Shown: positions 1,247 to 32,022 of the stretch, in pieces | Position numbering within the stretch: position 1 is the stretch's first letter | Layout of the letters: each line of letters starts with the position of its first letter | Source: an uncultured Lachnospiraceae bacterium | GTDB taxonomy: Bacteria; Bacillota; Clostridia; Lachnospirales; Lachnospiraceae | Assembly (NCBI GenBank): GCA_902775555.1 | Contig: CACYMQ010000015.1 | Coordinates: 1 to 42,262, forward strand | Length of the DNA: 42,262 bases | Direction of reading: 5' to 3' | Notes under the pieces: model-generated | Told to the model about the DNA's origin: nothing | Seen by the model: the letters and a program-made list of their open reading frames with translations, nothing else | The model's database searches: none | Position numbers and translations under genes: made by a program

Positions 1247-1942
1247 TTATTCAATGATCTCTTCCGCCAGGGTACGTACATCCTTCTCCGTGATTCCCTG
1301 TTCCGAATAAAGGGAATATGCATACTTCCCATCTGTCCAGCGGACCAGAGAGATCAGGCTTCCGTCTCCGGACAGGTTCAGCCGGGTTCCCCGGACATCC
1401 AGCGGCTTATTTACCTTGTATTCCGTATAAACGCCGGATCGGTCCTCTGTCCCTTTCGCCTTCCGGTAGGTCAGCTCCTCCTTCGTTCCCCGGTATTCCT
1501 CTTCGGCAATGGATCCCGAGATCAGCCGGTAGGACCGGTCCGTCACGGTAAATGGAACCGCTTTCAGCTCCTTTACCGAAAACCCGGCAGCCTTCTCCAG
1601 CTCCTCTGCAGAGGGATACTCCGTCATATGATAGATCCCGGGTGCCATATCCTCCGTACCGGGTTCAGCGCCCCCGGTAGAGACTCCGCCGGTCACGTTC
1701 GGTGTCCCGGTCACCGTCGCAGTCTCCGTACTCTGCACCGTATTTCTTCCACTCCACGGTTTTGCCACCAGGAGGATAACAGCTGCCGCTGCCGCCATGC
1801 CGATCACCGGAAGAACGATACGGATCGTCTTTCGTCGTCTCCTTTTCGCGAAATGATGATCTGCATGGGAAAGGATACGGTTCTTCATTTCCTCCGTCAT
1901 TTCCACATGATCCATGATCTCATTATATTTAGCCAAAGTCAA
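1247..1942 (-). CDS. Probable membrane-anchored anti-sigma factor
   Basis: This 231-aa protein has a short cytoplasmic N-terminus with MTEEMKNRIL, a basic stretch (KRRRRK), one membrane segment at about residues 41-59 (IRIVLPVIGMAAAAAVILLV) and a roughly 170-residue extracytoplasmic part. It shows no zinc-binding anti-sigma motif. The start overlaps the 3' end of the ECF sigma gene by 14 bases, which implies translational coupling and is the usual arrangement of sigma/anti-sigma pairs. The topology fits a sensor that holds the sigma factor and releases it on an envelope signal. The anti-sigma role is inferred from position and topology, not from a recognised domain. Confidence 0.75.
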   Translation of the reverse strand: MTLAKYNEIMDHVEMTEEMKNRILSHADHHFAKRRRRKTIRIVLPVIGMAAAAAVILLVAKPWSGRNTVQSTETATVTGTPNVTGGVSTGGAEPGTEDMAPGIYHMTEYPSAEELEKAAGFSVKELKAVPFTVTDRSYRLISGSIAEEEYRGTKEELTYRKAKGTEDRSGVYTEYKVNKPLDVRGTRLNLSGDGSLISLVRWTDGKYAYSLYSEQGITEKDVRTLAEEIIE

Positions 1943-2573
1943 ACTCCTCCTTCAGGATTTCTTTCAGGCGTTCCCTGGCCCGCTTCAGATCCGAGCGGAT
2001 CGTCGCTTCCTTTCTTCCCAGGATCTCAGCGATCTCCGCTGTCTTATACCCTTCCTGATAAAAGAGGTGGATCACCTCGCGTTGTGTATCCGGAAGGCCC
2101 TTTACCGCCTCCCAGACAAACCTGAGGTCCTCCCTTTCTTCCGCCACCAGCTCCTCATTCAGCTCGTCCGTGGTTCTGCGGGTGTTATACAGGATCCGGT
2201 TCTTCGCCACATTTGAAGCCGCCGTCATAAGGTACGCCTTCTCATGCGCTGCATTCTCAAAAACGGGTTCCGCCTCCAGGACGCGGATCAGTGTGTCCTG
2301 CAGGACCTCCTCCGCATCCGCCATATTATGTACATAGGAATAGGCAAGCCGCAGGATGGCATTTCCATAATCCTTCAGGAGATGTTCTGCATATAGCTCC
2401 TTCGATCCCGCTGCATTTCCACTCCTTCGGGCGCTGTCCGTCTCCTCTGCCCTCCGTATCGGCTCTGTCCTTACGATCTGCCGTGTTGTCAGTTTGGACA
2501 GGATCTGCCGGAGGAGCCCGAAGAGATCCGTTCTTCTTATCCCTATCCTCTTTTCGCCGAAAGCGAGCTGCAT
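1929..2573 (-). CDS. ECF RNA polymerase sigma factor
   Basis: This 214-aa protein has sigma-70 region 2 at about residues 65-125 (YGNAILRLAYSYVHNMADAE, EEVLQDTLIRVLE) and region 4 at about 145-205 (LPDTQREVIHLFYQEGYKTA, EIAEILGRKEATIRSDLKRA). The roughly 60 residues before region 2 are longer than usual for an ECF sigma factor. I chose the start at 2573 because AGGAGGGG sits 5 bases upstream; the longer frame to 2633 has no such site. The same TGCAAC-N16-TTGTAT element precedes this gene and the lipoprotein gene, so autoregulation is likely. It overlaps the anti-sigma gene and lies 94 bases behind the protease fusion gene. Confidence 0.93.
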   Translation of the reverse strand: MQLAFGEKRIGIRRTDLFGLLRQILSKLTTRQIVRTEPIRRAEETDSARRSGNAAGSKELYAEHLLKDYGNAILRLAYSYVHNMADAEEVLQDTLIRVLEAEPVFENAAHEKAYLMTAASNVAKNRILYNTRRTTDELNEELVAEEREDLRFVWEAVKGLPDTQREVIHLFYQEGYKTAEIAEILGRKEATIRSDLKRARERLKEILKEEFDFG

Positions 2574-2592
2574 TTTGCCCCTCCTGTTATAG

Positions 2593-2620
2593 ATACAAGT
2601 CTTCTTTGGAAAATGTTGCA
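2593..2620 (-). promoter_or_regulatory. ECF sigma-type promoter of the sigma operon
   Basis: TGCAAC (2615-2620, minus strand) and TTGTAT (2593-2598) are separated by 16 bases and followed by the AGGAGGGG ribosome binding site and the sigma start at 2573. It matches the element before the lipoprotein gene in both hexamers, spacing and an internal TTTCC. It implies a very short leader of roughly 15 bases and positive autoregulation. Confidence 0.65.
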
Positions 2621-2667
2621 GGTACCGATCCATATTTTACCGCATTATGTAAAAAACGTCATAGGTT

Positions 2668-5600
2668 TTATTCTTTCAGGAGTTCCTCCATCTCTTCTGC
2701 CGTCAGTTTGTTCTTCTTCAGCAGTTCCGTCACCATCCGGTCCAGCCGGCTCTTATTCTTCTGAATGATCTCAACAGTTGCCCGCATCTCCCGTCCCAGG
2801 AATTCATTTACCTTCCTGCGGAATTCCGGATCCCGCATCGCTTCTCCCGGATCCATATACGCAAGTCCGAACTCTTCATCCATTCCGTAGGCACTGATCA
2901 TGGCCGCTGCCAGCTTCGTAGCCTGCTCCAGATCACCCGAAGCACCGGTTGAAACACCGTCCTCTTCGCCATAGTACGCGATCTCGGCCGCGCGTCCTCC
3001 GAGGCTTGTCCGGATACGGGCGATCAGTTCCTTCTTCGTGGACAGAGGCCCCATCTCCCTTGCGGAATGCTCCATATATCCGCCATGGCCGCCACGCGCC
3101 ACAATGGTAAGATAGGACGGCGTATTGCCTCCCAGATAGCAGAGGAACGCATGTCCGCTCTCATGTCTGGCAACCCGCTCCAGATATTCGTAGCCCCAAT
3201 CCTTCTTCTCGCCGTGCTTCGTCAGCTCAAAGGCTTCATCCAGTATCGCATCGTCCACTGCCTTACCGGCCTTTACCGCCATGCGGTTTGCCAGCTCCAC
3301 CACGCTCGTCAGGTTCGCGGGACTCATCCCGACGGCCCGTTCGGCGGTGCGCCGGATCATTTCCTCCGTCACTTCGCAGGTGATGCTCTTATAGAGAAGC
3401 AGGCGCAGCAGCTTCTCCCTGTCCTCCGCATTCGGGAGATCCACCAGGATCTTCCGGTCAAATCTCCGTGCCAGCGCGGGATCGATCACTCCCATCCCGC
3501 CCCGGCCTTCTTCCACGTCAAAATTTGTGGCAGCCAGTACAAATACCGGGCGTCGGGGATCCACGGAGAATCCGTCCATTTCCGTAAGAAGGGCATTCAG
3601 TGCCATCTCCTCCCCATGGGCGTTATGGGATGCGTCTCTTTTTCTCCCTATCGCATCGATCTCATCTATGAAAATGACCGAAGGCGCATAGCGGCGTGCC
3701 TTCTTAAACAGTGCCCGGACGGATTCCGGCCCGCTGCCCTGATATTTCGTGACAAATGAACTGGCGACCGCCGGAATGAACGCTACATCTGATTCTCCTG
3801 CCATAGCCTTCGCCAGCATGGTTTTCCCGGTTCCCGGAGGGCCATAGAGGAGTACGCCCTTCGGAGGCGTGAGTCCCTGAGCTGTAAATTTCCTGGGATT
3901 CTTCAGATAACGGATGAAGAATTTCAGCTCGTCCTTAGCATCCCTGGCACCTATCACATCATCGAAATGAAGATCCGGTTTCTCAACCTCATCCAGCACA
4001 CTTCCCGTATCCTCTGCGGAAGGCGCCCTCCTGAGAGAGAAATCCCGCAGTCGGATGGTCACTTCCTTTTCATCCTCCGATAATTTCGGAGCCGTATCAA
4101 AATTCAGGACCTTTCTCTCTGCCGCAAGCATCGCTGCCGCATTTTGCATATAGAGTTCATGACAGATCTCCTTCAGCATATCCTCGAATATGCCGAAATC
4201 GTCCTCGGGCTCCGTGATCTTTCCTCTTGCTCCTGCCCGGACGAAGCTCATAAGGAGTTCCTCATCTATCTGAAACTCCCCGGACTCAAGAAGATAGACC
4301 GGAAGCTCCGGAAGTCTCTCCCGAAGTGTCCGGAACAGATCTCTTCCATCCTGGAACAGGCTTGCAGCCATAGGGATATAATCAAATGCTCCTGCGGAGA
4401 GCATCATCTTCTCTTCCGGCACTTCCTCCAGGATCGTTGCCATCGGATCAGCCGGCATCTCATTTTTCCCGGATGCATCAAGCAGGATCAGTCTGATATC
4501 CTTTTCTCCTGCCTTTTCCAGGGCTTCATTCACATTACAGGTATCGTAAAAGACATAATCCGGCAGCTTCTCCCTGCAGCTTCGGGCGAATTCAGGATCT
4601 CCGTAGATCAGTATCTCCGGCTTTTCATCGCTGAAGAAGAGAGGTTCCGTCTCCGGAGTCAGGGAATCCGTCTCGACCGTAAATCTGACGGTATCCAGCT
4701 TCCCCAGCGCCTCTTCAAAGCTTTCCTCGCTCCAGAGCCTGCACAGCTTGAATATCTCATTTTTAAAGAATAATTCCGTCTGGGCACGCAGGGTTCTGGC
4801 GTCAGCCTCTCCTCCTTCACGGAACAGAAGCGCCGTTGCGGTAAGGTCATCAAACTCCGTCTTAAAATCGTACTGTTCTTCAAAGAGCTTTCCGAACCGC
4901 TTTATCTCCCTTGCGCTGATCCGTTCAAGATCATACGGATCCAGGTGGTTGAACAGCAGCGGCCATCCGGTGGCAAGACGGCTTGTGATAGCCGCCGGGA
5001 AGAAGGGCTCACCTGTCCTGGGATCCTTCTCGGTTTCCAGAGCTCCAAGCAGGGTCTTCCTCGCAACGCCGGCAGCGTTCTGCCGGTTCTCTCCTTCGTA
5101 AAGGGATTTCCCCGCATTGCTTGTAAATATGATCATCGTATCCCGGAAGCTCACGGTCTTTCCGGTATACCTGTCATTTAAACGTCCCGCATCCAGGATC
5201 TGGAGGAATAGCTGGATCGTATTAAGATGCGCCTTCTCGATCTCGTCAAAAAGCAGGATGGACTTCGGATTCTCTTCCACAAACTCCGTAAGCTGTCCTT
5301 TGGCAGCGCCGGAATAACTCTTCTCAAAGCCTACCAGGCCCATATAGGACTGATGGTCCGCATAGGAAGACATATCGAACCGCTTGAAGGGAAGTCCGAG
5401 GGATTCCGCGGCCTGTTCCGCAAGAAATGTCTTACCGACTCCCGGAGGTCCTACAAAAGCAAAGATCGCACCCGGTCGCTTCCTCGATTCATCGCTTTTT
5501 GCCAGGACCTCGGCGGCAAATACGCCTTCCGTAAAGGCATGAACCACGTGATCCTGACCCTGAACGGTACTGAGAAGCCTGGCCCTCAGCTTTCTGATCT

Positions 5601-6207
5601 TTGATGTCAGCTCTGCCAGGAAGGCTGCACTCTGCCCTTCACCGGACGGAATCTCATCATCGTTACCGTCAGCATCCGCCGGGTTATCCGGATTCTGCTT
5701 TTCACCGGCACCGGCCGATCCGTCCTTCCGACCGGATTTCTTCTCTGCTTCCTCCTCATCATCCGTATTCAGGATCCAGCCGACGCTTCCGCAGACCTGC
5801 TTCAGGACCATGGTGGGCTTTTCCAGGATCGCATTCAGAAGATCTGTCGGGAAAATTTCATCTGATTTCCGCGCTTTTGCGATCTCATCCGCCCTGCTCA
5901 GGTATTCATCAACATGTACCGTTTCCGCCATTCCCCCGATCGCCAGTTGAACTCTGAGAAGGCTCCGCAGCTGCCCGGTATCCACTTTATAAATATCCTT
6001 AAAAAGGATATTTAATGCCTTGATCTCGGTATTTGTCACCCGCAGAATGATCGCCGGCGCCTTGAGAAAATCCTCGGCCTTCAGCTCACAGAGCTTCAGT
6101 ATCCCCAGAAAATAATCCTCTACTCCCGCTTTGCTCTGTTTCCTGAACTTTGCCTCGGCATTTGCCCTCTGCATTACCACGGCCCTCATCGTTGTTGAAT
6201 ATTGCAT
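2668..6207 (-). CDS. ClpB-type AAA+ / pseudo-receiver / FtsH-M41 protease fusion
   Basis: This 1179-aa soluble protein contains, in order: a Clp-N-like helical domain (1-140) matching that of the kinase at 7438-11154; an acidic linker (to about 200); a ClpA/B-D2-type AAA+ module (Walker A GPPGVGKT near 255, Walker B ILLFDEIEKAH, sensor TSNAG); a receiver-like domain (about 530-690) that keeps LILLDAS but has Glu where the receiver Lys should be (GKITEPEDD); an FtsH-type AAA+ (GPPGTGKT near 790, VIFIDEIDAIGRKRD, ARRFDRKI); and an M41 zinc peptidase with HESGH near 1017 and the third ligand in GASGDLEQATK. FtsH's membrane segments are absent. Presumed role: ATP-driven unfolding and degradation of cytoplasmic substrates. 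The start at 6207 is set by AGGGGGG 6 bases upstream. It follows the 93-aa gene in the kinase/phosphatase operon. Confidence 0.93.
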   Translation of the reverse strand: MQYSTTMRAVVMQRANAEAKFRKQSKAGVEDYFLGILKLCELKAEDFLKAPAIILRVTNTEIKALNILFKDIYKVDTGQLRSLLRVQLAIGGMAETVHVDEYLSRADEIAKARKSDEIFPTDLLNAILEKPTMVLKQVCGSVGWILNTDDEEEAEKKSGRKDGSAGAGEKQNPDNPADADGNDDEIPSGEGQSAAFLAELTSKIRKLRARLLSTVQGQDHVVHAFTEGVFAAEVLAKSDESRKRPGAIFAFVGPPGVGKTFLAEQAAESLGLPFKRFDMSSYADHQSYMGLVGFEKSYSGAAKGQLTEFVEENPKSILLFDEIEKAHLNTIQLFLQILDAGRLNDRYTGKTVSFRDTMIIFTSNAGKSLYEGENRQNAAGVARKTLLGALETEKDPRTGEPFFPAAITSRLATGWPLLFNHLDPYDLERISAREIKRFGKLFEEQYDFKTEFDDLTATALLFREGGEADARTLRAQTELFFKNEIFKLCRLWSEESFEEALGKLDTVRFTVETDSLTPETEPLFFSDEKPEILIYGDPEFARSCREKLPDYVFYDTCNVNEALEKAGEKDIRLILLDASGKNEMPADPMATILEEVPEEKMMLSAGAFDYIPMAASLFQDGRDLFRTLRERLPELPVYLLESGEFQIDEELLMSFVRAGARGKITEPEDDFGIFEDMLKEICHELYMQNAAAMLAAERKVLNFDTAPKLSEDEKEVTIRLRDFSLRRAPSAEDTGSVLDEVEKPDLHFDDVIGARDAKDELKFFIRYLKNPRKFTAQGLTPPKGVLLYGPPGTGKTMLAKAMAGESDVAFIPAVASSFVTKYQGSGPESVRALFKKARRYAPSVIFIDEIDAIGRKRDASHNAHGEEMALNALLTEMDGFSVDPRRPVFVLAATNFDVEEGRGGMGVIDPALARRFDRKILVDLPNAEDREKLLRLLLYKSITCEVTEEMIRRTAERAVGMSPANLTSVVELANRMAVKAGKAVDDAILDEAFELTKHGEKKDWGYEYLERVARHESGHAFLCYLGGNTPSYLTIVARGGHGGYMEHSAREMGPLSTKKELIARIRTSLGGRAAEIAYYGEEDGVSTGASGDLEQATKLAAAMISAYGMDEEFGLAYMDPGEAMRDPEFRRKVNEFLGREMRATVEIIQKNKSRLDRMVTELLKKNKLTAEEMEELLKE

Positions 6208-6259
6208 ACGCTTCCCCCCTGTTCTTTCCCGGTTATACACTCATGACCACCGGCTTTTC

Positions 6260-6541
6260 CTATTCCCTCTCATCCTCAGACAGAAGATCATTTGCCTTCA
6301 GATATTCTTCAAATGCAGCGATCATCTCTTCGCCGGCTTTCTCCCTTTCTGTTTCCGCAAGGATGGAGATCCTTCCTCCGATCCCTTTTTGCTTTACGAC
6401 AAATCTTCCTTCTTCTCCAAGCTCCGTACCCAGTTTTGATATATATTCACCTATCGCCGGATCCGTGTTAAGATCCATTGCTTTACGAAGGCGGTATTCC
6501 CGGATGATAACATGTTTATCCGAACCGTAACTCTTCTCCAT
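6260..6541 (-). CDS. Small protein, unknown function (93 aa)
   Basis: A 93-aa charged cytoplasmic protein starts at 6541 behind GGAGA at a 6-base spacing. A longer upstream frame would overlap the phosphatase gene and lacks a ribosome binding site. The sequence ends in a strand-helix pattern (GGRISILAETEREKAGEEMI, then AAFEEYLKAN) and an acidic tail. I do not recognise a family. It lies between the PP2C gene (64 bases upstream) and the protease fusion (52 bases downstream) in the same orientation, so it is probably co-transcribed and may be an adaptor, inhibitor or substrate of this system. Confidence 0.8.
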   Translation of the reverse strand: MEKSYGSDKHVIIREYRLRKAMDLNTDPAIGEYISKLGTELGEEGRFVVKQKGIGGRISILAETEREKAGEEMIAAFEEYLKANDLLSEDERE

Positions 6542-6605
6542 ATCATTTCTCCGCTTATTATGCACTCCTGTTTCCGCCTTGCAACCCCGGCACTCCTGCG
6601 CCGTT

Positions 6606-7364
6606 TTACCCGATCCTGATATATGCGGCGGATATATTGTCTCTTCCTCCGTTGGCATTTGCTTCCAGGATCAGCCTTTTACATACCACCTCGGGATTCT
6701 CGGAGGAACGCATGATCCTTGCGATGACACTTTCTTCCGCCATTCCGTATAACCCATCAGAGCAAAGCAGTATCCTGTCTCCGGGCTTAACATCCACAAT
6801 AAAGGTCTCCGGTGTCGCAGGCTTCGGCATACCGACAAATGCGGTCAGCTGGGAGCTTCGGTAATCATTCTTTGCCTGCTCCTTCGTCATCTCACCGTTC
6901 CGCACCAGGTATCCCGCAACATTCATATCATTTGTGATCTGCCGAAGCTGCTTTTTATACTTCGGAAGAAGATATCCCCTGCTGTCTCCCAGGCATACGA
7001 AGATTGCCTTATCCCTGTGCAGCAGAACGCCTGCCAGTGTTGCTCCATAGCGGATGGACCATCCCGTATTTCCCTGATCATAGAGCCTGTCACTCACCAG
7101 CCGGACAACATCCGTAAGATAGTCTGCCATTTCCTCCGCTCGGAGCGAAGACCGGTCATGATCACCCGCTTCTATGGTAATGGGCATCGCTTTTCTCACA
7201 TATTCCGAAGCCTTCCCGCCCTGTTCCAGTCCTCCCATTCCATCGGAGACCGCAAAAAAACCGGTTTCCGGGGAAAGGATCACCTCATCCTGATTGCTCT
7301 CCCTGCATTTTCCGATATCTACCAGCCCTGCATATCGGTATGTGAAATTAAAATGTCTGTTCAT
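6606..7364 (-). CDS. PP2C-type Ser/Thr protein phosphatase
   Basis: This 252-aa single-domain phosphatase has all PPM metal-site motifs: SNQDEV near residue 23, FFAVSDGMGG near 36, GATLAGVLL, VCLGDSRGYL, ILLCSDGLYGM and the C-terminal GGRDNIS. It should remove phosphate from Ser/Thr residues using two Mn/Mg ions, and so oppose the two kinases encoded just upstream. No membrane segment or extra domain is present, so it acts in the cytoplasm. The start at 7364 has GAGGA about 10 bases upstream. The layout kinase, kinase, phosphatase resembles the Fha/PpkA/PppA phosphoswitch of some type VI secretion systems, but no secretion genes are present here. Confidence 0.95.
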   Translation of the reverse strand: MNRHFNFTYRYAGLVDIGKCRESNQDEVILSPETGFFAVSDGMGGLEQGGKASEYVRKAMPITIEAGDHDRSSLRAEEMADYLTDVVRLVSDRLYDQGNTGWSIRYGATLAGVLLHRDKAIFVCLGDSRGYLLPKYKKQLRQITNDMNVAGYLVRNGEMTKEQAKNDYRSSQLTAFVGMPKPATPETFIVDVKPGDRILLCSDGLYGMAEESVIARIMRSSENPEVVCKRLILEANANGGRDNISAAYIRIG

Positions 7365-7422
7365 CCTGTATCATCCTCATTTCTGTACCTTCATTCGTCC
7401 GCAAACACCCATGGTGCCTGTC

Positions 7423-7452
7423 CTATTCGGTGTACTCCTATTCGATGTACTC
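7423..7452 (-). repeat. 15-bp tandem duplication spanning the kinase stop codon
   Basis: CTATTCGGTGTACTC (7423-7437) is followed directly by CTATTCGATGTACTC (7438-7452). On the minus strand this reads EYIE-stop-EYTE-stop. The last four codons and the stop have been duplicated with one substitution. Confidence 0.85.
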
Positions 7453-10400
7453 CCACTCGATGGCATAACTCTTCGGTCCGTGATCGAGCTTCAGAAGCTG
7501 ACAGCCATCCCGGCTTATGGAGCTGACCCTGTCAACATCGATCACATCCGAAGATGCGGAATATACACATTCGCCGTCCGAAACGCGGTAGATCATAAAC
7601 CGTTGCGGTTCATTATACGAACCCGCGTCCCTTATAAATACAAAGTCCATGGAGGCAGTACCGAAGACTTCCCTGATCAGCTTTCCTTCGTATATGTTCT
7701 TCCACCTTTTCTCCGTCATATCATATATGGCCACATACATAACACTGTTCTCTCTGCCGACAAAAAGAAGCTTCCTTTCATCCCCGGACAACTGAACCGA
7801 GGATAACGTCATTTCCGGTCTGTCGATCTCCTCTTCCGTGCCGCTCACCACATCCCGTATGAGTACAGGAGAAGAGGAACTGAAATCCGACCAGAATATG
7901 ACTGTCGGGGATTTTGTGAGCACAACCGCCTTCCTGCGCCTGTATACGTTGCTGCCTCCGCTCCGGAGATAACGTTCCTCTCCGGAAATGATATCCTTCA
8001 GGATATACTCATACTGCTCTTCCTTCTTATCCCCGACCATCAGAACCGCATTTTCCCCGTTTCTGCAAACCGCCGTCACGGTGACAAGTCTTTTACTCCT
8101 GTCGTTCAGTCGAATGATCCTGCGGTCCCGTTGTCCGTCCCTGGTACGGGTCACCATAACAAAGGAATCGTATTCCCTGAGCGCCTTCTGCTGCTTCGGC
8201 GGCGAGAGCTTATAGATCGGCGGATCTCCCACATCCATATATACATAAACCACGGAATCTCCGATATAAATGACATGATCATCCCCGTTGGCCAGAGTGT
8301 CGACACTCTTCCACCATTCATCATACCGTTCCGACGGATCATAAATGTCATGAAGACCGGCTACGGAAATGGGCCTGCAGACCTTCATCAGTTCCCGGTT
8401 CATGTCGGATATAAAATCCCCGCCCTCTACGGAGGGAAGCTGCCTTGCCGTGTCATAGGCCTTCAACATAGCACTGATATCCCTGACTTCTTTCGCTTCC
8501 TCAAATGCCCGGATCGCTGCCTCCAGAAGTCCTTCATTTTCGATTGCCGACGAAACATCCACCGGATGTGACAGCCGGTAGGGCGCTGTATATCCGCTCA
8601 CCCGCGGCGTATCCGGGATATACCAGAAGCAGGTCTCCTTTCCTGTTTTACAGAGCACCAGAAGTTCCTTCTCCTGATCAGAGTACAGGGAGGGAATCCC
8701 ACCGTCCCGTCCTTCCCTGCAGAAGTCATGGATTCTGGGTAGCTTTATGGTGGCAAGCCTTCTTTTCTCCTTTGTCTCCGCACAGATCTCGCTCGACCCT
8801 GCATTCAGATAAACATCCAGGCCGTCATGTGTTTTGATCCTTCCCCGGTATACCGGAAGAAATACAGGAAATTCCGCCGGATAGGTCTTTCGGTCCGGAT
8901 ATTCCTTCACCACACATTGTTTTCTTACATCCCAGAGCTTTGCTGTTCCGTTCCTCTTTGAGATAAATAAATGTTCCGCATCCTTTGTCAGCCCGGTCAT
9001 ACTTTCATCGGCTTCGTACGGGATTCTGGCCAGGATCAGGTTCTCGGGGAATTCTTCCAGAAATTCACCGGTATATGCATTGAATCTCTTCACCGCATAG
9101 AAGACAGACTGCGTCCCGTATCTCACGCGTACCGCAAAGGATATGATGTCCCCGTCCAGCCGTACAGCGGAGTTTTCGCCTTCCGGCAGACTTCCTCTTT
9201 TCCCTACGATGGGCGACGGATATGAGAAGTCGATCTCAAGGCCCCGTTCTTTCTGAAGATCATCCAGCGCTGCCGCCCTTTCTTCTTCATCCGTGACCTC
9301 CTGCAGCCGGGCATAGGCCTCCAGGTCGGTTATCTCTGCCTCTCTCCATAAGTAGAAAGTTTCATTGATCCGGGCATTTGTATCCCTGTTATCCATTTTA
9401 AGTGCTTCCTGAAAGGCTCTTTTTGCATCCTCCTTTTTCCCGATATCCAGGAAGGAAAGCGCTCTGTTATTGAGCGTACCCGCTGTGTCCTTTGCAGCAT
9501 CCGGCTCCGGTCTTCCGTATGCTTCGCCGGTCGTTGTCCGGTATATTTCCTTCAGTACCGTTTCCACCTTACCAAAATCATGATATCTGTCATCCGGATC
9601 CATGGCCATACACCTGGCCAGCATCTTCTGAAGCCGTTCGGGAACCGGAACGCGGCACATTTCATAATACTCATAGCATACGGAGCCGACCATCGGCCCG
9701 GTGAGCTCTCTGCCATGGGCCCAGGGCTTGCTTCCCAGGTACATCTCAAGAACGCTGACCGCCCAGCTGTAAATATCCGTCCTTCTGGAAAGCGGCTGCG
9801 AACTGCTTTGTTCCGGTGAACAGTACGCGGGCGTCATTCCCCCGGAGGGTGCGATGATGGTTCCATCCGGATCCCCATCCTTCCCCATCCATCCGTCCTC
9901 TGAGATGCTGAGCACGGAGCGCGCCTTAGCCAGACCGAAATCGCTTACCTTGGCCTCCCAGTTCTTCGTGAGAAGAAGATTGTCCGGCTTCACGTCCTGG
10001 TGGATCAGCCCGTTCTCATGAGCGTAGTGAAGCCCGCGGGCAAACTGGATCGCGATATCCAGGAGCCGCTTCGACACATCTTCCTCCGAGCCCTCATAGA
10101 GGCTCTCATTATTAATGTGATCCTCCAGACTGCCGTTCTCCATCCATTCGGAGAAGATCGTCGGGATCCCGTCCACTTCACGCACATAGTAGCAGGATAC
10201 GATGTTCGGATGCAGACCGAGCCGGATCCAGGAATCGCATTCCCTGATAAAGGTTTCCTTCTGCTTTTCCGATACGAAAAATGCGGGCTTCGGACGCTTC
10301 ATGGCCAGATCTACGTCCCAGTTCTTATGATGCACACGCCATACGGAACCCATACCGCCCTCTATGGCATCGGAATCGACACGGTACTGATCCAGGATGA

Positions 10401-11154
10401 CCTTTTCCTTCTTATCATTCTTATCATTCTTATCTTCATGATATGAAGTAGAAGCTTCATCCTCTTCGTATACTGTCCCGGCGGAATCCTCCTCTTCTTC
10501 TTCGTATATGGTGCCGTCAGAATCGTCGTCTTCTTCGTATACTGTCCCGGCGGAATCGTCGTCTTCTTCGTATACTGTCCCGGCGGAATCGTCCTCTTCT
10601 TCGTATACGGTGCCGTCAGAATCGTCATCTTCGTACACCGTGTTTGTGCTGACAGAATCGTCCTCCTCATATACCGTGCTGGTGCTGACGGAATTGTCTT
10701 CCTCGTACACCGGGGCTGCCGGGGTCTTCCAGCCTTCCACCTTCATGACATACTTCAGGGTGTCCGTAGGATCCTCAAGGATCGCATAAAGCATATCTAT
10801 GGTACGACAAACGGATGCACCCCTTTTCTCTGCGATCTCCATAGTCCGTGTCTGCAAAGCGGACATATCCACCTTTGACACTTTTTTGTTCAACATTGTT
10901 TCCAGCCGAAGAAGAGCTGCCATATGCGCAATATTGATCCCATATGTCTGCTCGAACAGCTGCTTTAATTCTTCGATTTCTCTGCTTATTCCCTCAGGAT
11001 CCACATATCCGCCGTGGACGTCGGACACATTTTTCCCTGTCAGATCCAGAAGTCCGAGAAAGAGAATCTCCTGTGTCGTAAAGCTTTTCCCCAGCTTGGG
11101 AGCCTCTTTCATTGCAAACTCCGTTACATAAATAATCGCTTTTGAAACCTCCAT
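7438..11154 (-). CDS. Ser/Thr kinase with Clp-N-like, acidic-repeat, TPR and propeller regions
   Basis: This 1238-aa protein has a Clp-N-like domain at 1-140 (FLGLLDL, LYAILEDP, VEGW) homologous to that of the protease fusion; an acidic array at about 148-234 with eight (T)VYEED-type units; a protein kinase domain at about 257-537 with EGGMGSVW, AMKRPKP, HQDVKPDN and SDFGLAKA; a TPR-like stretch near 550-600; and a C-terminal half rich in short beta strands with WD/PQQ-propeller character. The catalytic Asp, Lys and Asn are present, but the Arg of HRD is Gln, making it a non-RD kinase. There is no membrane segment. The start at 11154 has GGGGGGAG upstream. It lies 45 bases behind the FHA kinase gene. 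Likely role: phosphorylating partners of the protease system; the shared N-domain suggests both proteins dock to the same thing or to each other. Confidence 0.93.
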   Translation of the reverse strand: MEVSKAIIYVTEFAMKEAPKLGKSFTTQEILFLGLLDLTGKNVSDVHGGYVDPEGISREIEELKQLFEQTYGINIAHMAALLRLETMLNKKVSKVDMSALQTRTMEIAEKRGASVCRTIDMLYAILEDPTDTLKYVMKVEGWKTPAAPVYEEDNSVSTSTVYEEDDSVSTNTVYEDDDSDGTVYEEEDDSAGTVYEEDDDSAGTVYEEDDDSDGTIYEEEEEDSAGTVYEEDEASTSYHEDKNDKNDKKEKVILDQYRVDSDAIEGGMGSVWRVHHKNWDVDLAMKRPKPAFFVSEKQKETFIRECDSWIRLGLHPNIVSCYYVREVDGIPTIFSEWMENGSLEDHINNESLYEGSEEDVSKRLLDIAIQFARGLHYAHENGLIHQDVKPDNLLLTKNWEAKVSDFGLAKARSVLSISEDGWMGKDGDPDGTIIAPSGGMTPAYCSPEQSSSQPLSRRTDIYSWAVSVLEMYLGSKPWAHGRELTGPMVGSVCYEYYEMCRVPVPERLQKMLARCMAMDPDDRYHDFGKVETVLKEIYRTTTGEAYGRPEPDAAKDTAGTLNNRALSFLDIGKKEDAKRAFQEALKMDNRDTNARINETFYLWREAEITDLEAYARLQEVTDEEERAAALDDLQKERGLEIDFSYPSPIVGKRGSLPEGENSAVRLDGDIISFAVRVRYGTQSVFYAVKRFNAYTGEFLEEFPENLILARIPYEADESMTGLTKDAEHLFISKRNGTAKLWDVRKQCVVKEYPDRKTYPAEFPVFLPVYRGRIKTHDGLDVYLNAGSSEICAETKEKRRLATIKLPRIHDFCREGRDGGIPSLYSDQEKELLVLCKTGKETCFWYIPDTPRVSGYTAPYRLSHPVDVSSAIENEGLLEAAIRAFEEAKEVRDISAMLKAYDTARQLPSVEGGDFISDMNRELMKVCRPISVAGLHDIYDPSERYDEWWKSVDTLANGDDHVIYIGDSVVYVYMDVGDPPIYKLSPPKQQKALREYDSFVMVTRTRDGQRDRRIIRLNDRSKRLVTVTAVCRNGENAVLMVGDKKEEQYEYILKDIISGEERYLRSGGSNVYRRRKAVVLTKSPTVIFWSDFSSSSPVLIRDVVSGTEEEIDRPEMTLSSVQLSGDERKLLFVGRENSVMYVAIYDMTEKRWKNIYEGKLIREVFGTASMDFVFIRDAGSYNEPQRFMIYRVSDGECVYSASSDVIDVDRVSSISRDGCQLLKLDHGPKSYAIEWEYIE
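10451..10714 (-). repeat. Coding tandem repeat: eight TVYEED units in the kinase
   Basis: Imperfect 33-39 bp units encode (T)(V/I)YE followed by a run of Glu/Asp, then Ser with Asp/Ala-Gly or Val-Ser-Thr. There are eight units, seven beginning with Thr. Thr at position 0 with Glu at +3, or Asp in one unit, matches the preference of many FHA domains for pThr-x-x-(D/E/I/L). The upstream gene encodes an FHA kinase, so this may be a multivalent phospho-docking array; that is inference. Near-identical units at DNA level suggest recent expansion. Confidence 0.85.
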
Positions 11155-11199
11155 ACTACTCCCCCCGCTCATGTCACCGAAAAAATGAAATAGAATCAT

Positions 11200-13005
11200 T
11201 TACAGAATATCCATACAGTAATTTCTGGTCCCTTCCGGAAGTGCCCTGACGATATCATCATGAAGGACCGCAGCCGAAGAATACACGATCTTCGGTCTTT
11301 CGATCAGTGCTCTGTCTATCACCTCCGCCAGCTTAACCGGTATGGACGGATCTCTCTGTCTGATGGGGACCGCGTTTTCCGAAACCACGATCTGCCACAT
11401 GTTCGCACCCCGTCTGAAATTCTTCGGGAACTGACCGGTAAGCATATGATAGTAGGTGGCTGCCGCTGCCCATATATCCACCTCGGGCTTTGCATATCTG
11501 CAATTAAGCGCCTGCTGCCTCGGCATGAAGGGGACGGTTCCCTTGACCATGCCCGGAACATCGCTTATATTTGACAATCCTGCCGCCTGAAAAGCCTTCG
11601 CCATACCAAAGTCCGCAACCTTTGCGACAGGGTGATCACTGTTATCCGCCAGGAATATATTTCCCGGCTTGAAATCCCGGTGCACAAGCCCCTTTGCATC
11701 CATTGATTTTTCTTTCTCACCGCCAAACAGACCTTTTTTTATGATCTGGGCCTGCACCGGTGCATTATGTACATAATCCAGTCCATCCAGAGCCTGCAGT
11801 ATGATGAAGGTAGCAAGATTTAACGGAAGCTTTCCTCCGTAATGCTCCATCAGCGAATCCACACTCCCGCCCTCACAGAGATCCATCATGATATAATAAA
11901 CTTTATTACTGAATCCTGTTTTATAGGTGCGGACTACATTTTCATGATCCAGGAACTCAGTCAACTTTGCTTCTCTGAGAAACATGTCTTTTGCTTTTCT
12001 ATCTCCTGCGAGTTCCGGCAGCATGGTCTTTAATGCATAAACCTTGCCGGTCTTTCTCTCCTTAACCTTCCATACCTCTCCCATTCCGCCCTTCCCCAGA
12101 AGAGCCACTTTATCAAAACCTTCCACCGGAGCAGGACCCGCAGGCTGTTCCATTTTCAGACCACCGAGGATTTCGATGAGAAGATTGGCAAGCGCTTGTT
12201 CCATCACCTTGTTATGCTCTGCATCTGCTTCATCTTCCTCTTCTTCCGGCTCTTCCGCTGCGGGTTCTTCCCCGGCTGCTTCTGCCGGTGCTTCCTCAGC
12301 TGCTGCTTCCGGCTCTTCCTCTGCAGGTGCTTCCGCTGCCACAGCCTCTTCTTCAAGCGATTCCTCTGCAGATTCCACCGCGGGTTCAGCTTCTTCTGCC
12401 GATGCTTCTTCTGCCGATGCTTCTTCTGCCGATGCTTCCTCCGCGAGCTCTGCCTCTTCCTCTAACGGCAAACCTTCCGACTCCTCAGCCGGCACTTCTT
12501 CTGCACTCCCACCTTCCATTGCAGAAGCATACACATTTCCATCTTCCGGCTCTTCGACTTCTTCAACATCGCGGCCCTGCTGCGATTCATCCCACTCTCC
12601 GGAGATTGCCAGGATATCCGCCTTTTCTATGGTGCATTTCAACTCGCATCTCTTACCGAGCCTTATCACATCTCCGTCGTGAAGCTCATACTCCTCATGA
12701 GCCTCTCCGCCCGCTTCCTCTCTTGATTGTTCCCGCTCTCTCTGCCCGATCTTCCGGCCATTCAGGAATGTCCCGTTCAAACTCCCGAAATCCTGCAGCT
12801 TTATCAACGGCGGATTGATATCCAGCAGGCAATGATATCTTGAGACCGTATTTTCCGGAAGAACGATGCCACAATCCTCCTGACGTCCGACGAAAATGCG
12901 ATCCGCCTCTACATATTCATACTTCCGGCCCGCTGCTTCACCCTTTATTATCTCGATCGTAACCTTCTCTCCCATTTTCTCCCCCTGATAGTTTTGACTG
13001 TCCAT
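11200..13005 (-). CDS. FHA-domain Ser/Thr protein kinase
   Basis: This 601-aa cytoplasmic protein has an N-terminal FHA domain at about 12-95 with the canonical residues (RIFVGRQ, SRYHCLL, DFGSLNGTFLNG), an Ala/Glu-rich linker to about 285, and a protein kinase domain at about 299-590 (LLGKGGMGEVW, YALKTMLPE, HRDFKPGNI, VADFGMAKA). FHA domains bind phosphothreonine peptides, so the protein can both write and read the signal. The APE motif after the activation loop is replaced (GTVPFMPRQQ), which is unusual. Two good starts exist: 13005 (AAAGGGGGTG upstream), used here, and 12975 (AGGGGGAG upstream); the second would remove ten residues before the FHA domain. It is the first gene of the operon, preceded by a promoter and structured leader. 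Confidence 0.94.
   Translation of the reverse strand: MDSQNYQGEKMGEKVTIEIIKGEAAGRKYEYVEADRIFVGRQEDCGIVLPENTVSRYHCLLDINPPLIKLQDFGSLNGTFLNGRKIGQREREQSREEAGGEAHEEYELHDGDVIRLGKRCELKCTIEKADILAISGEWDESQQGRDVEEVEEPEDGNVYASAMEGGSAEEVPAEESEGLPLEEEAELAEEASAEEASAEEASAEEAEPAVESAEESLEEEAVAAEAPAEEEPEAAAEEAPAEAAGEEPAAEEPEEEEDEADAEHNKVMEQALANLLIEILGGLKMEQPAGPAPVEGFDKVALLGKGGMGEVWKVKERKTGKVYALKTMLPELAGDRKAKDMFLREAKLTEFLDHENVVRTYKTGFSNKVYYIMMDLCEGGSVDSLMEHYGGKLPLNLATFIILQALDGLDYVHNAPVQAQIIKKGLFGGEKEKSMDAKGLVHRDFKPGNIFLADNSDHPVAKVADFGMAKAFQAAGLSNISDVPGMVKGTVPFMPRQQALNCRYAKPEVDIWAAAATYYHMLTGQFPKNFRRGANMWQIVVSENAVPIRQRDPSIPVKLAEVIDRALIERPKIVYSSAAVLHDDIVRALPEGTRNYCMDIL
12389..12448 (-). repeat. 15-bp tandem repeat in the FHA-kinase linker
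   Basis: Three exact copies and one degenerate copy of GCTTCTTCTGCCGAT encode successive EEASA units of the Ala/Glu-rich linker between the FHA and kinase domains. The repeat length keeps the frame, so copy-number change would alter linker length only. Confidence 0.85.
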
Positions 13006-13989: not shown

Positions 13990-14472
13990 TCACAGGATCC
14001 GTTTCCGAATCACCTCATTGCAAAATGCTTCGATCTCCCCTGCCGGAAGCATAGGCGCCGCATCCAGCCGATAATCTCTATGGTTGTAGTCACTGTGTTC
14101 ATCCGTTTTGAAGATATATCCTGTAAGACGAACGAACGCAAACCGGGCTTTCATGTCAGGCGCCTCCCATATGGCTGCCTTCAGAAGTCCGATGTCCTCC
14201 ACTCTTTGCACCTGCTCCCGTAGCAGCCAGTACATCTCGTCATAGAAGCCATCCCTGACATACTCCCCTCGGATCTCCGGTTCCTCCTCGATCTTCAGAA
14301 CCCGATATGCCATTTTCTTTCTTGTTCCATCCCCGTTTCTTGCCAGATTCTCCAGCAGGAGCAGGTCTTTGGATGGATGAAGTTTTTTTATCTCCACGGA
14401 GGAATACAGAAAATGGATCAATTCCGGATCCATCAGATTCCAGTTCTCCCTCTGGTATAATTTGCTGTCCAT
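13990..14472 (-). CDS. Hypothetical protein (160 aa)
   Basis: A 160-aa soluble protein is preceded by a perfect AGGAGG 7 bases before the ATG. It is mostly helical, with patches such as LLLLENLARNG, VEDIGLLKAAIWEAP and FCNEVIRKRIL, and no membrane segment or signal peptide. I do not recognise the family. It lies 49 bases behind the open frame at 14522-14917 and 89 bases before the next gene, all in the same orientation. Confidence 0.75.
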   Translation of the reverse strand: MDSKLYQRENWNLMDPELIHFLYSSVEIKKLHPSKDLLLLENLARNGDGTRKKMAYRVLKIEEEPEIRGEYVRDGFYDEMYWLLREQVQRVEDIGLLKAAIWEAPDMKARFAFVRLTGYIFKTDEHSDYNHRDYRLDAAPMLPAGEIEAFCNEVIRKRIL

Positions 14473-14521
14473 CCAACTACCTCCTGATCAATTACCTGGC
14501 CGGATACTCTTCCTCTACATT

Positions 14522-14917
14522 CTATTTGCTGTCTATATATCTGGCAACCTCCATTTGCGCCTCATAGAGATCATACGAAAATTTCTCAAACTGATCCATT
14601 TTTTTGAGAAGACCTGACTGATCTGATACAGTTCCTGAAGGCAGACTGTTGCTCGCTGATTGTATCTTCCCTTTTAAGGTCTGCAATTCCGTATGATTGC
14701 TGCATAGATTATATGCCTCACTCAGTTTCGTATAAACCATACTGATCTTTGACTGATTTTCATTATATGCGTTTACAGGATCTCCGGAGTTCAGAGCCCG
14801 AAGAAAATCATCAACCGTATTGGAGGCAGACCATAATGCATCATTGATCTTTCTGTATACGGCATCCAGATCTACCTTATCCTCCTTGGCCTGGAACCCT
14901 TTTTTCCCCGCTTCCCG
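14522..14917 (-). pseudogene. Helical protein frame without a start codon, behind a response regulator
   Basis: An open frame runs from directly behind the TGA of the response regulator (14918) to a stop at 14522. The first ATG in frame (14740) is deep inside. Upstream of it the frame is clearly protein-like (WSASNTVDDFLRALNSGDP) and continues to GKKGFQAKEDKVDLDAVYRK. An AAGGAGG lies in the frame but is followed by no ATG, GTG or TTG, only by CTG. Either the protein starts at a non-standard codon or from 14740 (72 aa), or this is a gene whose 5' end, possibly with a signal peptide, was deleted and joined to the regulator stop. Family not recognised. Confidence 0.5.
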
Positions 14918-15664
14918 TCACAGTTTTCTCAGTCGGTACCCCATTCCCCAGACAGTCTCGATGTAATCAAAATCATCTTTCTTCGCAAGCTTCTTCCGAA
15001 GATTGCTCATATGCACCTTCAGGGACTGATCTTCCGGAAAATACTCCTCATTCCAAACACTTTCGTAGAGATTTGCTTTTGAGAAAAGCTTCGTGGGATA
15101 GGACAGGAGGATCACCAGGATATCATACTCCCGTGCAGTAAGGGTCAGCTCTTTGCCCCCGACGGTCACCGACCTGTTCTCCTGATCGATAACGATCCTT
15201 CCGTAGGTAAGGAGCTTCGCTCCCTTCATCCCCTGTCCGATATCGTTGGTTTCTCTCGCGGCGTTCTCTTCCTTCCCCTCCTCATCGGTCCGGAGCGGGA
15301 TCCGTGAACGACGGGCCACTGCCTCGATCCGCACCAGAACATCCGGCAGTTCAAAGGGTTTTATGATATAATCATCCGCTCCGGCGCGCATCATGGACAT
15401 CCGTTGGTCCAATGCGGACACAGCGGAAATGACGATGACGGGAATATCGGTTACTTCGCGGAATTTCGGAAGGAGCTCATCCCCCGAGAAGCCGGGGAGC
15501 ATCATATCCAGGAGCACCATTCCGTATTCCTTAACATGCGCCTTCAGTTCATTCAGTCCTCCGACACCGTCGTATCTCTGAACCGTCCGATATCCGTGCT
15601 TCTCCAGATACGTAGCCAGAAGCTGCGCTATTTCTTTATCATCCTCTATGATCAGTAGTTTCAT
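14918..15664 (-). CDS. OmpR-family response regulator
   Basis: This 248-aa protein has a receiver domain at 1-120 with the acidic pair IEDD, the phosphoacceptor Asp in MVLLDMMLPG near 53, and Lys in DYIIKPFE near 102. A linker rich in Glu/Asn follows, then a winged-helix DNA-binding domain at about 150-247 (LTAREYDILVILLSYP, VHMSNLRKKL, ETVWGMGYRL). It is the partner of the histidine kinase 76 bases upstream and ends the ABC-transporter/two-component operon. AAGGAAA lies before the ATG. Confidence 0.95.
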   Translation of the reverse strand: MKLLIIEDDKEIAQLLATYLEKHGYRTVQRYDGVGGLNELKAHVKEYGMVLLDMMLPGFSGDELLPKFREVTDIPVIVISAVSALDQRMSMMRAGADDYIIKPFELPDVLVRIEAVARRSRIPLRTDEEGKEENAARETNDIGQGMKGAKLLTYGRIVIDQENRSVTVGGKELTLTAREYDILVILLSYPTKLFSKANLYESVWNEEYFPEDQSLKVHMSNLRKKLAKKDDFDYIETVWGMGYRLRKL

Positions 15665-26596: not shown

Positions 26597-27289
26597 TTAC
26601 TCTACTCCGTACATATGACGGAGGATCACACGTTTAGCAGTTTCTTCTCCGAACAGGCTGGTGATCATATCCACCGCCGGACCACCTTCCGCATACAGCC
26701 GTTCAGCGAAGTCCCGTATCTTATCCATTTTGACAGCCGGGTCACAATCCGGCGCCTTTGCCGCCTGTGCCAGGTATACCCTTGCGCAGTCTCTGCCGGC
26801 ACGATGCAGCTTAGCAGACACCGTCTTTCGTCCGGTTTTTTCATACGTGCAGGAATAACGGATATCATCATACCAATGCTCTTTACCGCTGGTATAATCG
26901 GCAATCCCGGCATCCCGGTCTTTGATCATCTCATACTTTTTCTGCAGCCAATCCGGTTGAAATTCGATCTGAACATCGTACAGTTCGGCGATCTGTACTT
27001 CCTTTCCGAAAACAGCGAGCCAATCCAAATTAAAGAGTGGTACATCCTTTTCCGTCACGGAAAGCACAATCGTCTCCATGCCCATCAGCCCCCCGAGGCC
27101 TGCCATCCTCATGATACAGAGATGCCCGAGCCCCTGAACATCATAGGACTCCGTCCTTAACTCGATCCCTTTCTTGGAAAGCAGGGCATCCTCTCCGATA
27201 TCACACTCATTTATAGTATATTTTTCAGAAAGCAACTGAAAAACATATGCGCCAAACCCCGGTGTATTGATTTTCTTTTTTTCCATCAT
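26597..27289 (-). CDS. Unknown protein, possibly bilin-reductase-like
   Basis: This 230-aa soluble protein follows a strong GGGGGAG site. Its centre (ETIVLSVTEKDVPLFNLDWL followed by AVFGKEVQIAELYDVQ) has the strand pattern, the P-L-F/x-D block and the acidic strand end seen in ferredoxin-dependent bilin reductases, but overall similarity is weak and I cannot name catalytic residues. Treat the family as a guess; a plain hypothetical protein is the safe call. It lies between two paralogous acyltransferase-like genes in the same orientation. Confidence 0.8.
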   Translation of the reverse strand: MMEKKKINTPGFGAYVFQLLSEKYTINECDIGEDALLSKKGIELRTESYDVQGLGHLCIMRMAGLGGLMGMETIVLSVTEKDVPLFNLDWLAVFGKEVQIAELYDVQIEFQPDWLQKKYEMIKDRDAGIADYTSGKEHWYDDIRYSCTYEKTGRKTVSAKLHRAGRDCARVYLAQAAKAPDCDPAVKMDKIRDFAERLYAEGGPAVDMITSLFGEETAKRVILRHMYGVE

Positions 27290-31985: not shown

Positions 31986-32022
31986 TGGTCGATCACCATC
32001 CTCTCTGTCGGACAATATTCCT

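Follow-up and report, generated by a model that had tools for sequence, protein, structure and literature searches.

The window, the 42,262-nucleotide stretch of bacterial DNA analysed here, carries on its minus strand, from 13005 to 2668, genes for an FHA-domain kinase, a second kinase (kin2), a PP2C phosphatase, a 93-aa protein and a single-chain AAA+ protease, of which the kinases, the phosphatase and the protease form one conserved unit. We infer from the encoded proteins that phospho-controlled proteolysis is its best reading, and put at roughly 0.5 the probability that it is a conserved unit of cytoplasmic phospho-signalling with targeted proteolysis as its output. The features of the locus are listed below.

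11200..13005 (-): first kinase, a Ser/Thr kinase of 601 aa with the FHA motif GR..S.H..NGT and the kinase motifs HRD/DFG
12655..12894 (-): FHA domain of that kinase, residues 38-117 (Pfam PF00498, E 6.8e-16)
7438..11154 (-): kin2, second Ser/Thr kinase, 1238 aa (Pfam and motifs)
10720..11154 (-): ClpC-like N-domain of kin2, 31% to that of the protease (E 6e-13)
10465..10677 (-): array of seven T-[VI]-Y-E in the kin2 linker (motif count), candidate phosphothreonine docking for FHA
9583..10362 (-): kinase domain of kin2 (Pfam PF00069, E 3.1e-34)
6606..7364 (-): PP2C phosphatase, 252 aa; DGMGG, SDGL and GGRDNIS motifs (PP2C_2, E 1.5e-8)
6260..6541 (-): 93-aa small protein of a phosphohexomutase domain IV-like family (family profile)
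2668..6207 (-): single-chain AAA+ protease, 1179 aa; AAA, AAA_2 and Peptidase_M41 (2.5e-27) by Pfam
5758..6207 (-): ClpC-like N-domain of the protease (shared profile)
4888..5622 (-): Clp D2-type AAA domain (AAA_2) of the protease (Pfam)
3973..4620 (-): pseudo-receiver (REC-like) domain and linker of the protease
2671..4005 (-): FtsH AAA and M41 peptidase, with HESGH and, as candidate third ligand, Asp1092
13990..14472 (-): 160-aa protein upstream of the module here, possible further partner; homologues near the protease elsewhere
1247..2633 (-): ECF sigma factor (Pfam) and the next gene (anti-sigma by position only)

Conservation of the gene set

A sequence-only reading of this DNA had described five same-strand genes with gaps of 45-74 bases; all five appear in the list of open reading frames, separated by 45, 73, 64 and 52 bases with the starts used here, earlier start codons being possible for some of them. 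Co-occurrence was scored in 61 genomes, the window's own and 60 relatives, with kinase cut-offs of our choosing (E 1e-40 for co-occurrence, E 1e-15 for the FHA-kinase search). At E<=1e-40 the FHA kinase and kin2 were found in 5 of the 61 genomes, precisely those that hold a close orthologue of the protease (67-100% identity), and in none of the remaining 56; the 11 or 21 highest-ranking first-look candidates were scored per genome, and weaker kinases may exist beyond them. The kinases, PP2C and protease also recur as a set in a second family, in two genomes (G529 and G682) where the small protein was not detected, and they stay together while gene order varies between loci. Since the set recurs elsewhere in rearranged order, the neighbourhood is more than chance, and co-occurrence together with this retention rules out a chance arrangement. 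The five-gene observation is therefore confirmed, and the co-conservation check, named beforehand as the refutation test, found the set in those 5 of 61 genomes and at further loci. The idea of a module of five genes has to be narrowed, as the kinases, PP2C and protease are conserved as a set whereas the small gene is found in 7 of 14 loci. Carriers are some gut and rumen bacteria, and the window belongs to a Lachnospiraceae-type genome.

Catalytic motifs are retained in the close set. For the protease, the two kinases and PP2C, pairwise distances are correlated with r 0.88-0.96 (28-36 pairs, no species-tree control), and the FastTree topologies of the four proteins differ, with G010, G036 and NE2001 changing place. 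By their lengths, the contigs of L049 and L050 are those of L021 and L022, and each was counted once; L056 and L057, weak AAA matches making up 2 of the 10 loci in one set, were left unused; the alignments omit L043, a contig of 3.8 kb, while L042 (a segment of 454 aa) was dropped from alignment A10, L046 from alignment A9 and the contig-cut PP2C of G024 from the distance test.

At L052 the protease is present and no module kinase or PP2C lies within 21 kb. The other module genes are absent from the loci of eight distant homologues of the protease (26-37% across the whole length, 28-47% by tblastn segment), and the protease can therefore work alone. G035 keeps the PP2C, adjoining a HAD-like gene, and has neither kinase; four HAD-like genes follow PP2C in module loci. 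The middle region of the protease has no relative in plasmids or phages, and the protease, searched with close-relative patterns only, has no match in viral contigs; a mobile element was rejected on these grounds.

The ECF sigma/anti-sigma pair and lipoprotein described as adjoining the module are there in part: the sigma factor is recognized by Pfam, its neighbour has no Pfam family match and is called anti-sigma by position, and the gene after that is called a lipoprotein by its lipobox-like start. None of the three has a homologue in the 15 other loci searched (E<=1e-4), so they are apparently not part of the module and were rejected as members. Homologues of the 160-aa protein (25-34%) follow the protease in L048, L053 and L023 and lie further downstream in L022. 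An RNA leader was also rejected: the window has no Rfam match, and shuffled versions of the 257-base region that precedes the first kinase fold almost as well as the region itself (z -1.25). Promoter-like sites (17 vs 13.2 expected) are uninformative; terminator-like sites number 24 vs 11.4 expected.

Architecture of the module proteins

The protease is ordered as a ClpC-like N-domain, a Clp AAA domain, a pseudo-receiver, an FtsH AAA domain and an M41 peptidase, with motifs intact. It had been taken for a ClpB/FtsH-M41 fusion, of which the FtsH-M41 part stands (AAA motifs, HExGH and a candidate third zinc ligand are present), whereas the rest differs in its ClpC-type N-domain, single Clp-type AAA and extra pseudo-receiver. 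Its scores are 328.6 bits against the FtsH family (TIGR01241, cut-off 600), 153.6 against ClpA (cut-off 993.15) and 128.8 against ClpB (cut-off 1232.1); one Clp-type AAA stands in place of the two Clp AAA rings of ClpB/ClpA, and no N-terminal membrane helix was found (highest 19-residue hydropathy 1.17). Walker motifs are intact in the first AAA, where Leu occupies the position of the pore tyrosine (GYVG) of Clp D2 domains. When the pseudo-receiver is compared at the canonical receiver positions (Asp acceptor, Thr/Ser, Lys), the acceptor Asp is present in 9/9, the Thr position is Glu in 9/9 and the Lys position is Glu, Ala or Cys. Having lost the Thr and Lys of a phospho-acceptor, it does not qualify as an active receiver domain, and it probably mediates interaction or coupling between the two rings rather than accepting phosphate. 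The N-domain family matches the ClpC NTD by profile, with a weak match when repeats are taken singly (best domain E 0.06). Ser4 and Glu30 are invariant in 15 of 15 N-domains (alignment A9), and Glu30 aligns with ClpC Glu32, a phosphoarginine-binding residue.

The first kinase combines its FHA domain with a Pkinase match of E 2e-35. In kin2, a ClpC-like N-domain is followed by the Thr array, a kinase domain in which HQD replaces HRD, a TPR-like stretch (Pfam match below cut-off) and a beta-rich C-terminal half. That kin2 and the protease share an N-domain, as had been proposed, is borne out in the window by a single comparison over 137 columns at the identity and E-value listed above. The tie is seen in the window and in L053 but is not general: Clp_N is found on 2 of 12 kin2 proteins, and of the 10 others, nine have none (tblastn E<=1e-3) and that of L048 is cut there. 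The C-terminal part of kin2 is variable among homologues, and its poor model (pLDDT 52.3), with a TM of 0.15-0.27 by model length among the 50 structure matches listed, suggests beta-propeller-like repeats at most.

The repeats earlier considered a likely FHA docking array are real and far above chance, although two of the 12 kin2 proteins lack them. T-[VILM]-x-[DE] occurs in 2–13 copies in the linkers of 10 of 12 homologues (68 observed vs 5.7 expected in all 12), T.[DE] is depleted in the same linkers (8 vs 36.5), and in L044 and L045 the Tyr is mostly lost while the Thr and the +3 acid remain. The genomes of the two proteins without the array have no FHA-kinase match at E<=1e-15; the FHA kinase and a tandem array of Thr-x-x-acid on kin2 occur together. 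For L051, L052 and L055, absence of the FHA kinase holds only as far as their genomes are complete. L052 and L046, which have no kin2 in reach, stand outside this count, the linker of L048 is truncated where its contig begins, and the L055 linker was taken as the 140 residues ending 10 before the glycine loop. The same spacing is found in DLPpTVVEI, which is bound by the Fha of A. tumefaciens (PMC3953482).

The family profile of the small protein matches phosphoglucosamine mutase (E 2.9e-8). PF00408 falls below cut-off on the L048 and L053 homologues and does not match the window copy; the family resembles phosphohexomutase domain IV.

Phosphorylation as a proposed gate for proteolysis, and the rival readings

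The retention together of kinases, phosphatase and two-part protease suggests that the timing or the targets of destruction by the protease are set by phosphate tags. A bolder version, less likely than not, is an undescribed complex in which the multivalent pThr array on a sensor kinase would recruit the FHA kinase and the assembled complex would feed clients via the shared ClpC-like N-domain to the single-chain Clp-FtsH protease. In the main reading, about as probable as not, either kinase could phosphorylate the array threonines, the FHA kinase would dock on them with an avidity set by copy number, the variable C-terminal part of kin2 would read the input, and PP2C would reset the kinase complex. 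Once active, that complex would deliver or license clients at the ClpC-like N-domain of the protease, to be pulled through the Clp-type ring and then the FtsH ring into the M41 chamber; where present, the phosphohexomutase-IV-like protein may be a phosphate-binding adaptor.

The likeliest rival, clearly less probable than the main reading, is a phospho-degron, a Ser/Thr counterpart of McsB-ClpC-YwlE in which the kinases tag clients, the N-domain reads the tag and PP2C removes it. It has in its favour the same division of labour among kinase, ClpC-type NTD reader, unfoldase-protease and phosphatase, and the invariant Glu30 at the ClpC Glu32 position; yet the ClpC NTD reads phosphoarginine whereas Hanks kinases produce pSer/pThr, for which the FHA domain is the only pThr reader seen. 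McsB (PF00217) was not found in the window genome (G000), nor in any of 24 same-genus genomes lacking a close protease (24 of 32 such genomes tested), and matched in one of 12 hosts of Clp_N-type proteases, that of L052. The search was silent in all 14 controls, including B. subtilis, which presumably has McsB, and the absences are therefore uncertain. Because McsB was also not found in genomes without a close protease, its absence is no sign of replacement, and we dropped the idea that the module replaces it: McsB was not found in the tested genus genomes with or without the module. It is unlikely, too, that the protease regulates the kinases, destroying kin2 or an inhibitor and so ending or starting the signal, with kin2 competing through the shared N-domain for the protease's adaptor; kin2 of the window and L053 does carry the protease's own N-domain, but the other kin2 proteins, apart from the truncated L048, have none at tblastn E<=1e-3.

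About as unlikely is a general stress response tied to Ter-type systems, in which the protease would clear proteins damaged by chemical stress and the kinases serve as an alternative input. The L052 protease (58%) does follow, on the same strand, four TerD-domain genes, AIM24, PRTase_2-TRSP, StiP-PELOTA and a HAD gene, but this is one locus only, and the window genome has no TerD match in a search that found its control in B. subtilis. A role in anti-phage defence with variable sensors, which patchy occurrence and variable kin2 ends might suggest, is not supported and is improbable. The kinases are akin to PD-T4-6 and MAD6 and the AAA to IetA, all by general kinase or AAA homology, the only kind of match that PADLOC gave on module genes; a DNA/RNA non-specific endonuclease is encoded after the module in L021 (PF13930, E 4.5e-20), yet in L021 only, flanks having been scanned for some of the loci. 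Against defence also speak the lack, among the Pfam matches listed for the five conserved genes, of any nuclease, methyltransferase or toxin family, and the lack of relatives of the tested protease region in plasmids and phages and of the protease in viral contigs. Mere co-inheritance of neighbours without joint function is equally improbable: relatives do have the protease with no kinases nearby, but in two families the set is kept although its order is rearranged and its flanks differ.

Proteolysis under the control of phosphorylation has a central role in eukaryotes, and its clear bacterial case is phosphoarginine with ClpCP. Were phospho-controlled proteolysis the function of this module, it would parallel, in a prokaryote, the kinase-gated degradation carried out by SCF-type ligases and offer a tractable bacterial model of such degradation, with kin2 sensor ends swappable so that the same core could be wired to different inputs. 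It raises the questions of whether multivalent pThr-FHA docking sets a switch threshold in bacteria and whether ClpC-type N-domains can also work with proteases that are not ClpP. Lachnospiraceae bacterium NE2001 (L054), which is not labelled a MAG, may be a cultured carrier.

Comparison with known systems

Among the papers listed by literature searches aimed at the set, none describes a system of this composition, in line with what had been supposed. A PASTA kinase in cell-wall control does not fit: the two kinases score 127.8 and 133.8 bits against a cut-off of 450, with no PASTA match by Pfam and no hydrophobic helix by hydropathy. MADS defence, in which a MAD kinase acts together with a methyltransferase, was set aside as well, the MAD6-like matches being far below the NCBIfam cut-off and no methyltransferase appearing among the matches listed for the 20 window proteins scanned by Pfam. 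The same Pfam scans of 20 window proteins, by which secretion and cell-wall genes were sought, gave no secretion genes. On the protease Clp AAA region, AAA_3, the MoxR type, is below cut-off (best 25 of 41 families). No vWA was found in 10 proteins scanned by Pfam (for the protease, the best 25 of 41 families), and no Ubl or caspase match is among the matches listed for the module; with no vWA or MoxR partner seen there, it does not fit an FtsH ternary conflict system. Those vWA-MoxR-FtsH systems (Kaur et al. 2020, PMC7159879) share with the module a two-AAA protein with an FtsH-type ATPase and contain propellers and ClpN domains, but the first AAA of the module protease is Clp-type and Walker-intact rather than a dead copy of FtsH. 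Regulation of type VI secretion by PpkA-Fha-PppA (PMC3953482) likewise combines a Hanks kinase, an FHA reader and a cognate phosphatase, with an FHA ligand, pT-V-x-E, of the same spacing as the kin2 array, whereas the module links a protease and carries its FHA on a kinase.

Ter stress operons touch the module in that the L052 protease lies directly after one, unlike in the window genome, which has no TerD match. With FtsH and ClpA/ClpB/ClpC the protease shares an FtsH AAA and M41, a Clp AAA_2 and a ClpC-like NTD; it differs in their fusion on one chain with no apparent membrane helix and one Clp-type AAA, and from ClpA/ClpB/ClpC in having its peptidase on the same chain. McsB-ClpC/ClpP-YwlE of Firmicutes is alike in that a kinase and a phosphatase go with an AAA+ protease bearing a ClpC-type N-domain, which in the module has an invariant Glu at the phosphoarginine site of ClpC (Glu32). 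The module, however, has Ser/Thr Hanks kinases and a PP2C rather than a guanidino kinase and YwlE, and carries FtsH/M41 on one chain in place of ClpP, together with a pseudo-receiver.

The module and its distribution

The placement of the five genes proposed by the sequence-only reading was confirmed in the ORFs of the window, as were their domains in Pfam. The start positions used for the ORFs, in the order of the genes along the minus strand, were:

13005, minus strand: FHA kinase
11154, minus strand: kin2, the second Ser/Thr kinase
7364, minus strand: PP2C phosphatase
6541, minus strand: small protein
6207, minus strand: protease

Outside the module, the window holds a second PP2C-class gene, a GAF-SpoIIE phosphatase (PP2C type; 30603-32015), a histidine-kinase-like protein (15741-16841) whose translated C-terminal half carries imperfect short RQTGAG/GQSEAG repeats, and a weak match to ferredoxin-dependent bilin reductase (26597-27289; E 4.9e-4, below the cut-off), odd for a Lachnospiraceae-type genome.

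Among 61 genomes (the window's own, G000, plus 60 relatives), close protease orthologues (67-100%) were found in five (G000, G002, G010, G024 and G036), while G018 and G035 hold distant ones (39-40%) and G008 two protease segments (34-36%). When the co-occurrence search suggested by the sequence-only reading was run, FHA kinase and kin2 (E<=1e-40) were found together in exactly the five of 61 genomes that hold the close protease. PP2C orthologues (63-67%) were present in G002, G010, G036 and G035, with two contig-cut pieces (74% and 56%) in G024. In G035, where PP2C has a HAD-like gene behind it, kin2 was not found at E<=1e-40, nor FHA kinase at E<=1e-15. The G035 locus itself (L071, G035:C102, 593-2131) looks like the remnant of a lost module: its PP2C shares 65% identity with that of the module and is followed by the usual HAD-like gene, neither kinase is present, and the genome's distant (40%) protease lies elsewhere.

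In a wider census with a profile of the protease middle region (E<=1e-8, counts including the window's genome), the region was detected in 6/397 genomes of the family (the other five being distant or fragmentary types), 3/295 of the order (G529 and G682 close) and 3/398 of the phylum (G843 close, G1056 distant). Ten loci came from a scan of named genomes; eight are close relatives (58-78%), two of which are the G036 and G024 contigs again. The module is rare and patchy in the genomes sampled.

We then compared 14 loci with a ClpC-N-type protease. kin2 lies near the protease in 12; of the other two, L052 has none within 21 kb, and the L046 contig, at 4.4 kb, is too short. FHA kinase and protease share a locus in seven cases (window, L021, L023, L053, L054, L044, L045), and in G010 and G024 the FHA kinase sits beside PP2C on a contig separate from the protease. 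The L022 and L048 contigs start past the expected FHA kinase position, and searches of the L051, L052 and L055 genomes, which may be incomplete, turned up no FHA kinase at E<=1e-15. Of PP2C, L051 shows only a 35-residue end, at the edge of the contig and 8.4 kb away from the protease. The small protein is present at 7/14 loci (window, L021, L022, L023, L048, L053, L054) and undetected in L044, L045, L051, L052 and L055; L024 and L046 are cut. The genes usually run FHA kinase, PP2C, (HAD-like), kin2, protease, small protein; in the window they run FHA kinase, kin2, PP2C, small protein, protease. The loci of eight distant proteases hold no other module gene (L025 is truncated on the protease side).

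Further genes recur in subsets of loci: a 160-aa protein; a HAD-like gene (by motif) after PP2C in L022, L023, L071 and L072 (75-86%); and, preceding the FHA kinase in L054, L072 and L073, a protein that has an HTH-like segment recognised by eye (no Pfam match in L054) and is 65-70% identical among these loci. LRR, DUF6273 and DUF5050 proteins are interposed between module genes in L023 and L024. In L053 the FHA kinase is immediately preceded by a further Ser/Thr kinase gene, the third at this locus (2456-3820; PF00069, E 6.5e-30), and the distant proteases of L025 and L026 share neighbours that we named from translations as an ABC-ATPase-like gene, a large permease-like protein and a nucleoside-phosphorylase-like gene.

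Pairwise distances for protease, FHA kinase, kin2 and PP2C correlate at r 0.88-0.96 over 8-9 genomes, without species-tree control; the four tree topologies differ, with G010, G036 and NE2001 changing placement. That the module genes form one unit is well supported, and we consider it highly probable.

Protease and small protein

The protease comprises a ClpC-like N-domain, an acidic linker, a Clp D2-type AAA domain, a REC-like domain, an FtsH AAA domain and M41, with no apparent membrane helix in the window copy. Because it falls far under the NCBIfam cut-offs for FtsH, ClpA and ClpB, it is not a standard member of either the FtsH or the Clp type. In its close relatives the Walker motifs, HExGH and Asp ligand are all intact (L046 is truncated ahead of the peptidase). 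One distant protease (L047:8573-11434, 29%) preserves the first Walker A and HEAGH, but its other three Walker motifs appear degenerate as aligned.

The N-domain profile matches ClpC NTDs (best E 4.3e-5 for whole sequences, 0.06 for single domains). Its invariant Glu30 aligns with ClpC Glu32, which PMC12583610 describes, with Glu106, as crucial for phosphoarginine binding; among eight distant proteases, two (L039, L040) have Glu at this column. Sequence matches of the middle domain to response regulators are weak (best E 9.4e-4; other folds rank below), and it was modelled as a beta-alpha fold with pLDDT 66, dropping under 50 at residues 62-98 and 206-226. The best Foldseek match has E 9.5e-6, and the 50 matches listed are, judging by title or name, receiver or response-regulator structures, except six 6oec matches (fusion to 3H5I) and a single 'sensor protein' (3grc). 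Since the phospho-acceptor Asp is retained and Thr and Lys are lost, we class the domain as a pseudo-receiver.

The small-protein family profile matches the phosphoglucosamine mutase C-terminal domain (E 2.9e-8). Individually, the L048 and L053 proteins match PGM_PMM_IV below the Pfam cut-off (4.7e-4 and 1e-3), and the window copy has no Pfam match to it. An R-x-x-S-x-E-P loop, which resembles the mutase phosphate loop, is kept in L053 and L048 and absent from the window copy.

Kinases, phosphatase and the kin2 array

All FHA kinases (9/9) and kin2 proteins (9/9) examined carry the HxDxKxxN and DFG motifs; kin2 reads HQD instead of HRD in 8/9, and its ATP-site Lys motif is present in 9/9. The PP2C motifs (8/8) and the FHA motif residues (9/9, with VGR in seven and an IGR reading in two) are likewise present. 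The C-terminal half of kin2 varies among genomes, with Pfam matches to TPR and, in L044, L055 and weakly L053, propeller repeats.

The likely FHA docking array noted from sequence shows an excess of T-[VILM]-x-[DE] motifs, with 68 observed in 12 pooled kin2 linkers versus 5.7 expected from shuffles, and 2 to 13 copies in 10/12; T.[DE] is depleted (8 versus 36.5 expected). The L044/L045 arrays mostly lose Tyr but keep Thr and the +3 acid, suggesting that the conserved site is Thr. The genomes of both linkers that lack an array (L051, L055) yielded no FHA kinase, but their number is small and they may be incomplete. Docking of the FHA kinase on this array is likely. Agrobacterium Fha binds DLPpTVVEI with a Kd of 1.58 mM and a 20-mer with 0.54 mM (PMC3953482); an array could overcome such weakness of single sites.

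Output of the module and related systems

In L052 (1607-13423), the Clp_N-type protease directly follows four TerD-domain genes, AIM24, PRTase_2-TRSP, StiP-PELOTA and HAD; TerD has no match in the genome of the window. McsB (PF00217) was detected in the host of L052 alone and not in the other 11/12 hosts of Clp_N-type proteases, absences that are not firm, because the search control matched 0/14 named genomes, B. subtilis included. Of the 50 genomes searched for it, 15 had a match. As McsB was also undetected, with the same caveat, in all 24 genomes tested out of 32 in the genus without the close protease, lineage would explain the pattern, and we set aside a link between its absence and the module.

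For a role in defence, the module genes offer only generic homology, together with one adjoining gene: in L021 (G036) the next gene after the module (14247-15338) encodes a DNA/RNA non-specific endonuclease (PF13930, E 4.5e-20), and none like it was found among the other neighbours scanned. The most economical reading of the module's output is phospho-controlled proteolysis, to which we assign a probability of about 0.5.

In keeping with the sequence-only reading, which knew of no described system of this composition, no paper on this gene set was among those listed by searches of the openly available literature, a body from which subscription papers are mostly absent. Among the papers listed, the closest describes vWA-MoxR-FtsH systems (Kaur et al. 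2020, PMC7159879), with related work on McsB (PMC8370763) and the ClpC1 NTD (PMC9604228).
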